From the NCBI GenBank assembly GCA_029001845.1, contig JAREWP010000050.1, positions 1 through 64,000 on the forward strand: a DNA stretch of 64,000 nucleotides. Reading direction: 5' to 3'. This stretch comes from Candidatus Magnetocorallium paracelense (lineage in GTDB: Bacteria > Nitrospirota > Thermodesulfovibrionia > Thermodesulfovibrionales > Magnetobacteriaceae). The notes beneath the pieces were generated by a model, which worked only from the letters and a program-made list of their open reading frames with translations, had not been told where the DNA came from and ran no database searches. Numbering within the stretch: the stretch's first letter is position 1; each line of letters begins with the position of its first letter. Below, in pieces: positions 26,318 to 51,728 of the stretch. The position numbers and the translations under genes are program-made.

Positions 26318-26398
26318 AAAATGTAGCCGCAGGCTTCAGCCTGCGGCCGGGTTCGGCTGACCAACGGTTCGCGCAGGCTAAAGCCTGCGGCTACATTT
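26318..26398. repeat. GCAGGC palindrome, long form
   Basis: Two GCAGGC hairpins (ATGTAGCCGCAGGC... and ...GCCTGCGGCTACAT) joined by CCGGGTTCGGCTGACCAACG. The same long form occurs inverted at 47757-47834 and, diverged, at 48823-48901. Confidence 0.85.
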
Positions 26399-47314: not shown

Positions 47315-47448
47315 CAATGTCATTCACTTAAGGAGCAAAGCACCATCCGCCTTCAGCGGCTAAACTCGAAGGCTCCGCTTCGCTGCGCCTTCTCAAACAT
47401 GACCCGCTTACGTCGGAAGGTGCTTCACCCCTTAAGTGAATGGTATTG
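47315..47448. mobile_element. 134-bp MITE, copy 4, with 9-bp target duplication
   Basis: CAATGTCATTCACTTAAGG at the left and CCTTAAGTGAATGGTATTG at the right form the ends. Direct repeats GTGTTAGAG flank it at 47305-47313 and 47449-47457. Same length as copy 1, inverted interior. Confidence 0.9.
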
Positions 47449-47457
47449 GTGTTAGAG

Positions 47458-48240
47458 CCTTATTTCGGTCATATATGAGCAAATGATAACAAAACGGGCA
47501 ATAGATAAAGAAATTATAGCAGGAACTGACCTCTGATCCCTGACCCCCGTGAACTGTTACAAAAGATGAAGTTATACTGAGAGATTGGGGAAATTGTGTG
47601 CAAAGGAATCATTTATTAGTGACTGAATGACGAAAAATGGCAATAACTGACAAATTATATCATGGAATCAATTATGATTCAACGATCGTTGTTGTGGTTA
47701 ATTTAAATTGGATAGGACTTTTCATTTTTTCATGCGGTTTTGCGGGCTGCTGTCAAAAATGTAGCCGCAGGCTTTAGCCTGCGCGAACCGTTGGTCAGAT
47801 GAACCCGGTCGCAGGCTGAAGCCTGCGGCTACATATAAAGACATCCGCCCGAAGGATGCTAACTTGACGTTTAGGAATTTCAAAACAGTCGCATTTGTGA
47901 GATCACCTGCCTGCAGGTGACCTCTGCGGTGCGCTTGCAAGATGCCGCCGGTGGTCACCCGTGGGCGGGTGACTCCCACAATCTGTGGGGGAAAGTAAAG
48001 CCCGCTGAAGGACGCTAACTTAACGAAAGAGGCTTTAAAACACTTCCTGTTCTCTTCAACTGCCTACAGTTTCTATGGCATAAAGATATTTACGATCAAC
48101 GATCACATCATAAAGAGATGTCCTGAAAGATGGTATGGTTCTTGTATTATTGTTTTTTATGCTCTTACAGAGCCTTAAAGTAAAGATATATTATTGATAT
48201 TGTTTCGCATAAGGAAAGGAGGCAGGAAAAGCTAAAAACG
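47458..48240. other. Gene-free repeat spacer before the riboswitch
   Basis: No credible coding region. It holds a GATCAGAGGTCAG-type piece (47525-47560), the long GCAGGC element (47757-47834), and a block bracketed by direct repeats GAAGGATGCTAACTTGACG (47851) and GAAGGACGCTAACTTAACG (48007). That block contains several hairpins such as CACCTGCCTGCAGGTG and CACCCGTGGGCGGGTG. Confidence 0.7.
48131..48146 (+). promoter_or_regulatory. Weak sigma-54-like site upstream of the riboswitch
   Basis: TGGTATGGTTCTTGTA keeps the GG at -24 and TTG at -12 with correct spacing but has GT for the near-invariant GC. It would give a leader starting about 85 nt before the aptamer. Speculative. Confidence 0.25.
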
Positions 48241-48322
48241 ATTATCTCTCGAAAAGGCAAACCGGTCGTGAGGCCGGGACGCAAATGCGCGGGTCTCTTT
48301 GAGACAGCCGACTTACCGAAGG
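48241..48322 (+). ncRNA. Cyclic-di-GMP-I (GEMM) riboswitch
   Basis: The GEMM-I core is intact: AAGGCAAACC, a P2 hairpin closed by a GTGA (GNRA) loop, the GGGACGCAAA ligand strand, a P3 hairpin GGTCTC-TTT-GAGAC, then CAGCCGACTTACCGAAGG. These match the consensus GGGCAAACC, GNRA, GGGACGCAAAG and GGTTACCG. The ribosome site GGAGG of the next gene begins at the 3' edge of P1, which suggests translational control by c-di-GMP; no terminator hairpin with a T-run is seen between aptamer and start. Confidence 0.92.
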
Positions 48323-48332
48323 AGGAAATAAA

Positions 48333-48662
48333 ATGGTAATTACAGAATATGTAAGCACATTAAGCAGCCCAAGAAAAATAAGTCTTGCCTTTGCTATTGC
48401 TCTTTCGCTTTTATTCTCTTTACGACTGTTTACAGGGGAGTTTTTTACATACTCCCAATGCGCTCCCCTTGGCAGCTCTTTGTTTTTATTGGTTTTGTTT
48501 ACAGGAAGCACAGTGGTGGTGACCATAGAAGCAATAAGGATATTGATACAGAGGATTCACTGGTCAGACAGGCAACATTTTATAGTCGTGCGCTTTCTAT
48601 GGTTATTTATTTTCAGCATTCAAATGATCGGCTTAAGCATAAATCGCTTTTTCTTGTTATAG
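48333..48662 (+). CDS. Unknown small membrane protein controlled by c-di-GMP riboswitch
   Basis: A 109-residue protein; AAGGAGG lies 7 nt before ATG. Three hydrophobic segments are at about residues 18-34, 46-67 and 85-108 (LAFAIALSLLFSLRLF, GSSLFLLVLFTGSTVVVTI, FLWLFIFSIQMIGLSINRFF), with an Arg-rich loop (RILIQRIHWSDRQH). I recognise no family. The dedicated riboswitch implies a role in a c-di-GMP-governed behaviour such as surface attachment, pili or envelope change. It is a single gene with repeats on both sides. Confidence 0.7.
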   Translation: MVITEYVSTLSSPRKISLAFAIALSLLFSLRLFTGEFFTYSQCAPLGSSLFLLVLFTGSTVVVTIEAIRILIQRIHWSDRQHFIVVRFLWLFIFSIQMIGLSINRFFLL

Positions 48663-48822: not shown

Positions 48823-48901
48823 AAATGTAGCCAACGGCTTTAACCGGCGTGGACCGTTAGTCAACCGAACCCGGTCGCAGGCTGAAACCTGCGGCTACAT
48901 T
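48823..48901. repeat. GCAGGC palindrome, long diverged form
   Basis: AAATGTAGCCAACGGCTTTAA ends are diverged, but the central GGACCGTTAGTCAACCGAAC and the GCAGGCTGAAACCTGC hairpin match 47757-47834. No gene is seen from 48663 to 49112. Confidence 0.75.
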
Positions 48902-49112
48902 TATGAACCTGCCGGAGAGCATTAACTTATAACATTTTGAGTCCACGTGTAAGCAATAATATCTATTTCCGATCATCATGGATTATGGTATTTTCGACAT
49001 CCCGGGGGGCTATCGGTTTTTGCGTCAATTGTGTTTTAATATCTGTTCACAGTCAATGTTTGCCGATTTTGAGCATGATACTATCTTTTGGATCTGACAA
49101 CGGCTATAAATA

Positions 49113-50060
49113 ATGAGCAATCTTCCTAAGTATTTACTTACCCTGCCTGAGCTTGCCGACATTTCAGGCGAACCGGAATCGGGAATAAAGAAGTCCTTTG
49201 GCAATGAGTCTTTTATAAATCTCCCGGGAAATAAGACTGCCCTGTCACCGGGTGCTGTAAAAGAATTTCTCCTTAACCTTGGTATGGATTACTCTTTCAG
49301 GGTGTTGGCTCATATTAATTTAAGGGGCGGCATTGGAAAAACAACAACAACGATAACCACAGCCACAAGGGCTGTACAGTACGGGTTTAAGACAGCTGTC
49401 CTTGATCTCGATCCTCAGGGTTCATCGTCTCTCGCCTTTGATATGGCCCCGGAAGAAGACGACCCGATATTTTACGATGTCTGGCAGAATCCTGCGAATC
49501 TTTTGATGCCTTCCATGGGCATGATCGAAGAAAACTTATATTTACTGCCATCTTCTCTTGAAAATGCGCTCCTTGATTCGAGCCTCTTAAATCCTGCTTC
49601 ACAAAAGAATGCAGTGAAGGGGGTATGTGAGATACTAAAGGAAGAGGGATTCGATCTCGTACTGATAGACTGCCCTCCATCATTGGGCGCTGCCGTTATA
49701 TCCGCCATATGCGCTGCCGACAGTGTTATTATTCCGGTATGCAGCGACGCTTTTTCCATGAAAGGTCTTCAGTTGACTTTAAAGGAAATCACTTCCATTT
49801 GTGACACCTTTACGATAAGCACTCCGGAAATAAGGATTCTCTATAACAAATTTGACAGGCGGATCAACCTGTCCGGCATCGCTCTGAATGAACTCTCTTC
49901 AACTTACGGGGATTTACTGATCCCTGTATTTATCAGAACAAGCACTGAATTCGCAAAGGCCCTTGCCGGTAAAGAGACGATCTTTGCATCGACCAGAAAG
50001 AGTACGGCAAGGGACGATTTCGATAAGTATGTAAGGTATATTTTGAATTTGCAAAAATAA
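49113..50060 (+). CDS. ParA/MinD-family ATPase
   Basis: A 315-residue protein. About 75 N-terminal residues (TLPELADISGEPESGIKKSF) look like a DNA-binding or MerR-like leader. The deviant Walker A is LRGGIGKTTTTITTATRAV, then AVLDLDPQGSSSLAF and FDLVLIDCPPSLGAAV. These are ParA/Soj motifs for ATP-driven positioning on the nucleoid. There is no ParB gene nearby; it is followed 2 bp later by a DUF697-like membrane protein and then AlaX, suggesting a housekeeping operon rather than a plasmid partition unit. Confidence 0.85.
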   Translation: MSNLPKYLLTLPELADISGEPESGIKKSFGNESFINLPGNKTALSPGAVKEFLLNLGMDYSFRVLAHINLRGGIGKTTTTITTATRAVQYGFKTAVLDLDPQGSSSLAFDMAPEEDDPIFYDVWQNPANLLMPSMGMIEENLYLLPSSLENALLDSSLLNPASQKNAVKGVCEILKEEGFDLVLIDCPPSLGAAVISAICAADSVIIPVCSDAFSMKGLQLTLKEITSICDTFTISTPEIRILYNKFDRRINLSGIALNELSSTYGDLLIPVFIRTSTEFAKALAGKETIFASTRKSTARDDFDKYVRYILNLQK

Positions 50061-50062
50061 CG

Positions 50063-50623
50063 ATGGCTGAGACGAAAGTTAAACGAACAAGGCGTCGGTT
50101 GTATGAGTCGGCGCCGGGCGAAGACAGAGTTCTTTTACAGGAAACACCGGTAATCGAGAACCGATCCAGGGAAAAAGAGGCGTTAAAGATAATCGGCAGG
50201 TACGTGAAGTGGTCCATGGGAACATCGTTTATTCCCATACCGTTGCTGGATACTGCTTTCATAACGGTCATACAGATCAGGATGTTAAAGAAACTATGCC
50301 TGCTCTATGACATGGAGTTTTCAAAGCAGAGGGTAAAGGCTGTAACAGCCTCATTTATCGGCGGACTCCATACCGGACTGATTGCAGGAAGTCTTTCCAA
50401 GACGCTTCCTCTGTTCGGACTTGCCGGTGCAGTCACTTCCATGGCGGTTATCTCCGGAGCAATAACGTATGCCATAGGCAAGGTTTTTGTTCAGCATTTT
50501 GAAACAGGAGGAACGCTTCTCGATTTCGATCCCCGTACGTTTAAAGAGACTTTTTTAAAAAATTATAAAGAGGGTCAGAAGCTTAGGGCTGAGAAAAAGG
50601 AGATTTTTTATGGTGAAGACTGA
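50063..50623 (+). CDS. DUF697-like (YcjF-type) membrane protein
   Basis: A 186-residue protein with a basic N-terminus. The core IIGRYVKWSMGTSFIPIPLL, then LDTAFITVIQIRMLKKLC and GLAGAVTSMAVISGAITYAIGKVFVQHF, has two or three hydrophobic helices of the DUF697 family. DUF697 domains accompany small GTPases or stand alone; function is unknown. The gene begins 2 bp after the ParA-like gene and overlaps the alaX-like gene by 14 bp, so the three are translationally linked. Confidence 0.75.
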   Translation: MAETKVKRTRRRLYESAPGEDRVLLQETPVIENRSREKEALKIIGRYVKWSMGTSFIPIPLLDTAFITVIQIRMLKKLCLLYDMEFSKQRVKAVTASFIGGLHTGLIAGSLSKTLPLFGLAGAVTSMAVISGAITYAIGKVFVQHFETGGTLLDFDPRTFKETFLKNYKEGQKLRAEKKEIFYGED

Positions 50624-51728
50624 AAAACTTTTTTATCAAGATCCCTATCTTACGGATTTTACGGCAACAGTTATAGACCTCTCCCCCAATGGCGTGGTCC
50701 TGGACAGGACAAATTTTTATCCCCAAGGGGGATATCAGGAATCGGATTCGGGTACATTAAGGGTCGGACAGGAGACTCTCGATGTTGTAAAGGTTACCGA
50801 TGAAGATGGCGTTGTTTATCATCAAATCGGCTCGGATTACAAGATTTATATCAATGACAGGGTGGAAGGTGTCATCGACCGAGAAAAGAGATGGTATCTC
50901 TCTGTTTTGCATACAACGCAGCACATACTGTCAAGGATCATTTTCAACAAGTATAAACTCCACACAATGCGCTCGGATTTCAGCATGAAGGGAGGAATGA
51001 TTCTTTTTTCGACCAACTTCAGGAACGAGTGGATCGAAGAGATTGAAGAGGAATTCCATCGTATTGTACGTAAGGAGGCCCCTGTGGAACGGTTGATATC
51101 CGGAGATGATATAAGAATCAAGGTAGGAGAAATCGATAACAGTCCCTGCGGGGGCACCCATGTTTCCAATACATCCGATTTAAGCAGTGTGTACCTGCTT
51201 GGAACGGATAAGGGGAAACTGCTTTTTGACGGCGGCCATTTCGGGTTGCTCAGACTGAGGACTTCCAGCAGAAAATTCTACAGGATAGAAAAGATGTTTA
51301 ATTTCCCTGAAGATGTTCTCACTACAGTGGAAAGGACGATAGATAATTACAACTCCATATCGTCAAGCCTTGACGACTTCAGAAAGGAGTTCTTACTCAG
51401 GGCCTTTAAAGACGACTCCCTTTCCAGGCGAATTAACGACATAACGGTATCGGTTATCGTTAATAACGATCTCGATTCCAAAGTTATCAAGAAAACCCTG
51501 AAAATGAAAGGAGTAACATATTGCTCAGATATGTACATAATAGGTATTGGATCGAAGCTGATCGTTCTTTCTATGTCCGATAAGGTAAACACCCTTGAAT
51601 TATGCCAATCTGTCATAAATTCCGGATCCTCGATAACCGGAGGGGGGAACAGAAAGAGAACGGATATGTCCTTTGAAGGTCTTGACATAAACGATGTAAT
51701 CGAGATGGTGTTGTCCAATGTACGGTAG
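50610..51728 (+). CDS. Alanyl-tRNA editing protein (AlaX/AlaRS-like, with DHHA1)
   Basis: A 372-residue protein without a synthetase domain. The editing site is SVLHTTQHILSRIIF (HxxxH) plus SPCGGTHVSNTSDL (CGGTH), which bind zinc and clear Ser or Gly mischarged on tRNA-Ala. The C-terminal ~120 residues resemble DHHA1, so it is the long AlaX form. It overlaps the DUF697 gene by 14 bp. It acts in the cytoplasm as a trans-editing factor. Confidence 0.87.
   Translation: MVKTEKLFYQDPYLTDFTATVIDLSPNGVVLDRTNFYPQGGYQESDSGTLRVGQETLDVVKVTDEDGVVYHQIGSDYKIYINDRVEGVIDREKRWYLSVLHTTQHILSRIIFNKYKLHTMRSDFSMKGGMILFSTNFRNEWIEEIEEEFHRIVRKEAPVERLISGDDIRIKVGEIDNSPCGGTHVSNTSDLSSVYLLGTDKGKLLFDGGHFGLLRLRTSSRKFYRIEKMFNFPEDVLTTVERTIDNYNSISSSLDDFRKEFLLRAFKDDSLSRRINDITVSVIVNNDLDSKVIKKTLKMKGVTYCSDMYIIGIGSKLIVLSMSDKVNTLELCQSVINSGSSITGGGNRKRTDMSFEGLDINDVIEMVLSNVR

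Follow-up and report, generated by a model that had tools for sequence, protein, structure and literature searches.

A c-di-GMP-I riboswitch aptamer overlapping the ribosome-binding site of a predicted orphan small membrane protein in Candidatus Magnetocorallium paracelense

In the class I cyclic di-GMP (c-di-GMP-I, or GEMM-I; RF01051) riboswitch Vc2, residues G20, A47, and C92 contact the ligand (PMC4744006). Vc2 is described as turning translation OFF, with P1 acting as its switching element (PMC9262584, citing Inuzuka et al. 2018). Both ON and OFF switches exist among GEMM-I riboswitches, and G at position 20 is the usual selector for c-di-GMP (PMC9262584). Variants for c-AMP-GMP also exist (PMC7266159).

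The window analyzed here (64,000 nucleotides of one contig) carries a whole-model match to RF03167 (c-di-GMP-I-GGC) at 48247-48321 (59.4 bits, E 1.8e-11, cmscan), which lies only 0.4 bits above the threshold of 59 for that family. The same segment aligns to positions 1-87 of the 87 in RF01051 with 56.1 bits (curated gathering threshold, 35 bits). Because both thresholds are exceeded, the aptamer is real, and its scores are well beyond what chance would give. It is a genuine c-di-GMP-I aptamer of the ordinary, well-known kind, and the GEMM-I assignment made in a first-pass annotation from the letters alone thus held up in the covariance-model search. Across all 103 contigs of the genome (6.0 Mb), exactly one more GEMM-I match was present (C43:6380-6454). 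The genome also contains 58 GGDEF matches, so c-di-GMP is almost certainly made by the host. We consider it likely that the locus (Table 1) is an ordinary class I c-di-GMP riboswitch controlling the translation of a single small membrane protein specific to its lineage, and that it is OFF at high c-di-GMP.

Table 1. Positions of features at the riboswitch locus (window coordinates) and at the paralogous locus L001 (G000:C43:4880-7122)
Feature	Position	Strand	Basis
Promoter-like site (CTTACA, 17 nt, TATATT), tentative	48164..48192	+	Consensus scan, 9/12 matches
Purine-rich stretch upstream of aptamer, possible competitor for the P1 pyrimidine arm, tentative	48211..48223	+	Folding
P1 5' strand, AUCUCUCG, complementary to Shine-Dalgarno	48244..48251	+	Sequence; fold with aptamer core enforced
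c-di-GMP-I (GEMM-I) riboswitch aptamer	48247..48321	+	RF03167 59.4 bits, RF01051 56.1 bits
G at Vc2 G20 contact position	48256	+	Precedes first P2 pair
P2 hairpin, GUGA tetraloop, helix complete	48257..48282	+	Listed pairs
A at Vc2 A47 contact position	48283	+	Alignment; RF03167 consensus is G here
P3 hairpin, short, mismatched base	48285..48314	+	Model alignment, listed pairs, aptamer comparison
C at Vc2 C92 contact position	48316	+	Unpaired base preceding P1 3' strand
Shine-Dalgarno AGGAGG, continuous with P1 3' strand	48320..48325	+	Sequence; modeled masked when aptamer folded
109-aa ORF, predicted three-helix membrane protein, orphan	48333..48662	+	ORF reading, hydrophobicity, codon usage, shuffles
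Paralogous GEMM-I aptamer	L001 1500-1574 (C43:6380-6454)	-	RF01051 63.6 bits, RF03167 64.7 bits
417-aa protein gene after paralogous aptamer	L001 140-1393	-	ORF

Aptamer integrity, the 109-aa frame, and its locus

We mapped the Vc2 contacts onto G48256, A48283, and C48316 by their place relative to P2 and P1, and all three residues are canonical for c-di-GMP contact positions. Pairing of P1 is possible if the register is shifted or a bulge is allowed. The base of P3 is poorly paired, with U48286 opposite U48313 and C48288 opposite A48311 (two of the four basal pairs). When three basal pairs were scored in 65 distinct aptamers, 59 had no mismatch and five had one; only the window aptamer had two. 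The first-pass description of the aptamer as intact by eye is therefore an overstatement, since its count exceeds that of all 64 others, and it is possible that the mismatches lower its affinity for the ligand.

The paralogous aptamer has the same P1 arm, the same contact letters, and the same GGAGGAAAUAA after the aptamer, but its basal P3 is fully paired. The 417-aa protein encoded behind it has a signal-peptide-like start, an acidic low-complexity stretch, and weak similarity to CARDB, features of what is probably a secreted protein. The window aptamer was previously described as a private riboswitch; a single gene does follow it, although a close paralogue precedes this secreted-type protein in the same genome.

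The mismatched P3 bears on the strongest alternative, in which the aptamer is a relic missing P3 pairs. The 109-aa frame would then be an ORF that arose by chance or is decaying, left within a rearranged intergenic region. The intact P3 base of the paralogue is consistent with such decay, as are several properties of the frame and its surroundings. The synonymous codon score of the ORF (-1.3) falls at the 5th percentile of gene pieces, with wrong-frame scores having a median of -7.0 and a 95th percentile of 4.2; under this model, trained on the window only, codon usage is weakly gene-like and marginal. The protein has no relatives in the searches described below, and the family does not conserve this locus: in two relatives, another gene stands immediately before the ParA-like gene. 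Nonetheless, P1, P2, the contact residues, and the spacing between Shine-Dalgarno and ATG are all kept, and one P2 pair has changed on both sides between the paralogues (G48265-C48274 in the window, A-U in the paralogue). Moreover, the frame at 48333-48662 remained open in 0.115% of 20,000 dinucleotide shuffles (n = 23), and none of these 23 contained three hydrophobic segments like those that start at residues 15, 43, and 81 of the protein. Given these results, we regard decay as improbable. With a rarely open frame, an ideal Shine-Dalgarno, and three hydrophobic helices, the ORF is probably a gene, one we would expect to be translated, and no other + strand frame before 49113 is a plausible gene, in agreement with the first-pass annotation.

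The same annotation placed the three-helix protein in no known family, which is borne out by searches of Pfam, NCBIfam, and PDB, where nothing scored above the cut-off. A single-sequence structure model contained helices only (mean pLDDT 60, pTM 0.35). Matches to PHROGs were weak and limited to families of unknown function (best E 0.0012); the candidate phrog_14283 was rejected as too weak, recovering neither the 109-aa protein in its own genome nor a homolog at 0.001 in relatives. DUF805 (PF05656) was likewise too weak (14.1 bits; cut-off, 25.7). At E values up to 0.001, no relatives were found in 101 genomes including those of its own family, in 177 genomes of the order, or in viral contigs; the genome sets searched overlap one another. 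Named genomes also yielded none in a search sensitive to close relatives only. Phage, viral, and PDB relatives were likewise sought and not found. A phylum sample of 296 genomes gave no relative at the 0.001 level, only hits of 14-19 bits, most with internal stops. One weak pairwise hit in that sample was to an ETR1_N ethylene-receptor-like protein, which we discount because, across 296 genomes, chance would be expected to produce a hit with that per-genome E-value; the 109-aa protein had no profile match to ETR1_N (PF25487) at E values up to 1. Within reach of these searches, the protein is an orphan.

The next + strand gene encodes a ParA-like ATPase at 49113, 451 bp downstream of the ORF, and begins a ParA-like, DUF697-like, AlaX-like gene order (49113-51728). 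In two family relatives, this order is directly preceded by an NRPS-condensation-like gene that is missing upstream in the window (the AlaX-like and NRPS condensation names are our sequence readings). Because these relatives join the NRPS-condensation-like gene directly to the ParA-like order, the switch and its ORF occupy a lineage-specific breakpoint. The switch is flanked by a near-palindromic repeat of approximately 84 bp (47757-47840 and 48823-48903), of which another copy lies at 26321-26398. The description of the gene as surrounded by repeats is accurate in that copies occur on both sides, but the element is dispersed (73 matches genome-wide, counting both strands of the near-palindrome) and has no special link to the switch. 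A separate long inverted repeat (ATTCACTTAAGG...CCTTAAGTGAAT, 47325-47442) lies between a sensor kinase gene and the switch.

Ligand identity

The highest-scoring model, RF03167, carries a "GGC" label, and this raises the alternative that the window aptamer is a GEMM-I variant with another ligand or a sensor of c-AMP-GMP, for which GEMM-I variants are described (PMC7266159). The position aligned to A47 is A in the RF01051 consensus, G in the RF03167 consensus, and A in the window (A48283). The feature that marks the RF03167 variant is thus absent, and we did not file the window aptamer as a c-di-GMP-I-GGC variant. In addition, position 20 holds the G that usually selects c-di-GMP (PMC9262584), and RF03167 is also the highest-scoring model for many ordinary aptamers from this order, with A at position 47 in all sequences inspected. 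An altered ligand on the basis of the GGC label was therefore rejected, the residue at position 47 and the commonness of the RF03167 preference in the order both speaking against it, and we consider another ligand very unlikely. Because the contact-position residues are canonical, the label probably implies no change of ligand. With A at position 47, and with the order's A47 aptamers also preferring RF03167, the window aptamer can be read as a standard sensor of c-di-GMP whose P3 is short, and we infer c-di-GMP as its ligand.

Under stricter filters, the other 19 family genomes gave no GEMM-I match, and matches were found in 96 other relatives of the order and class. The genes that follow GEMM-I in these relatives, named from our own sequence reading, encode secreted fibronectin-type, PilZ-like, and cytochrome-like proteins, often behind tandem aptamers. 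In this order, fibronectin-type secreted proteins are commonly preceded by tandem GEMM-I aptamers (L006, L008, L009, L010, and L015). In the tandem pairs, one aptamer has U-A instead of C-G at the P2 base (GGUAAAC...GCAC).

Expression platform and direction of control

As first proposed, the 3' edge of P1 reaches the ribosome site. The P1 3' strand (CCGA, 48316-48319) abuts AGGAGG without a gap, and the Shine-Dalgarno lies 7 nt from the ATG at 48333; thus, the Shine-Dalgarno sits in the 3' strand of P1, opposite a complementary 5' strand. In a modeled transcript spanning 48193-48360, the probability that 48321-48325 is unpaired decreased from 0.68 to 0.25 when the aptamer core was enforced. 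For a leader starting at 48240, it decreased just from 0.34 to 0.24. The size of the modeled effect hence depends on the transcript start, since the shorter leader is already mostly closed without ligand, but the aptamer fold reduced accessibility in every transcript modeled. A promoter consensus scan, in which the number of sites was no higher than in shuffles, yielded the tentative upstream site listed in Table 1.

Ligand-free accessibility was 0.68 with the upstream purine stretch included and 0.34-0.40 without it, and the equivalent stretch in the paralogue pairs with the P1 arm in the minimum-energy fold. In short-leader ligand-free folds, UCUCGAA (48247-48253) pairs with UUUGAGA (48298-48304) inside P3, and the sequence of the paralogue would permit nine pairs of this kind. 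The modeled pairing between the P1 5' strand and P3 suggests an alternative ligand-free state. The platform of the paralogue differs from that of the window, in that its GGAGGAAA is not a Shine-Dalgarno and can pair with a downstream UUUCCUCC, which also pairs with the true Shine-Dalgarno. This arrangement amounts to a three-way competition (GGAGGAAA / UUUCCUCC / AGGAGGGAAA). In equilibrium folding, the true Shine-Dalgarno of the paralogue was modeled as closed both with and without the aptamer.

To place the layout more broadly, a scan of a collection of named genomes identified 42 sites where a GEMM-I core is joined to CCGAAGGAGG, spanning Bacillota, Actinomycetota, Deltaproteobacteria, Rokuibacteriota, Omnitrophota, Chloroflexota, and others, most with a start codon 2-11 nt downstream. 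A test of P1 complementarity restricted to the AGGAGG set has no discriminating power, as the tails there hardly differ. For 53 aptamers, P1 arms matched their own 3' tails better than in all 2000 re-pairings (4.09 versus 3.48 of 5), which indicates that P1 extends through the tail that in the window carries the Shine-Dalgarno. An alphaproteobacterial MAG (L085) has a GEMM-I aptamer in the same P1-Shine-Dalgarno layout before a 61-aa frame with one hydrophobic segment. From its sequence, this frame may be another small membrane target of GEMM-I.

Based on folding, on comparison with other aptamers, and on analogy with Vc2, we favor a translational OFF switch. At high c-di-GMP, G48256, A48283, and C48316 would hold the ligand, the aptamer would fold, and P1 would close. 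Because the P1 3' strand continues into AGGAGG, UCUCUC of the 5' strand would then mask the Shine-Dalgarno, and translation would be off. At low c-di-GMP, the 5' strand may pair elsewhere (for example, with 48298-48304 in P3 or with the upstream purine stretch), which would leave the Shine-Dalgarno free. The converse, an ON switch whose ligand binding exposes the ribosome site, is extremely unlikely: GEMM-I switches of both types are documented (PMC9262584) and the short-leader ligand-free fold also closes much of the Shine-Dalgarno, but the latter sits in P1 itself and is less accessible in the aptamer fold of every modeled transcript.

Comparison with known systems

The kind of switch is already known, and only the controlled protein is unexplained. 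A gene under a GEMM switch is a c-di-GMP output and not necessarily a signaling effector. The earlier proposal of an effector of c-di-GMP signaling is unproven. By analogy with other GEMM targets, one guess is that the protein may be an envelope component that is no longer made in the sessile state, when c-di-GMP is high. It is doubtful, if conceivable, that it is the first of a lineage-specific family of small membrane proteins whose synthesis c-di-GMP represses directly and which take part in the transition between motile and sessile life. A protein that proves real, and conserved within its genus, would represent a new type of c-di-GMP output. The locus otherwise extends the set of c-di-GMP-controlled genes by one. 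Its layout is very compact, as a single helix would serve as both ligand gate and ribosome-site mask, and the genome scan shows that this layout recurs across many phyla.

Compared with RF03167, the window aptamer has the same short P3 and scores highest with that model, but differs in having A, not the consensus G, at position 47. With Vc2-type GEMM-I (RF01051), it shares the aptamer fold, the contact residues, and P1 as the element that would switch translation. It differs from Vc2 in its short P3 with two basal mismatches and in its orphan target. In the window the Shine-Dalgarno lies directly in the P1 3' strand, whereas the masked site in Vc2 is described as distant from the aptamer.
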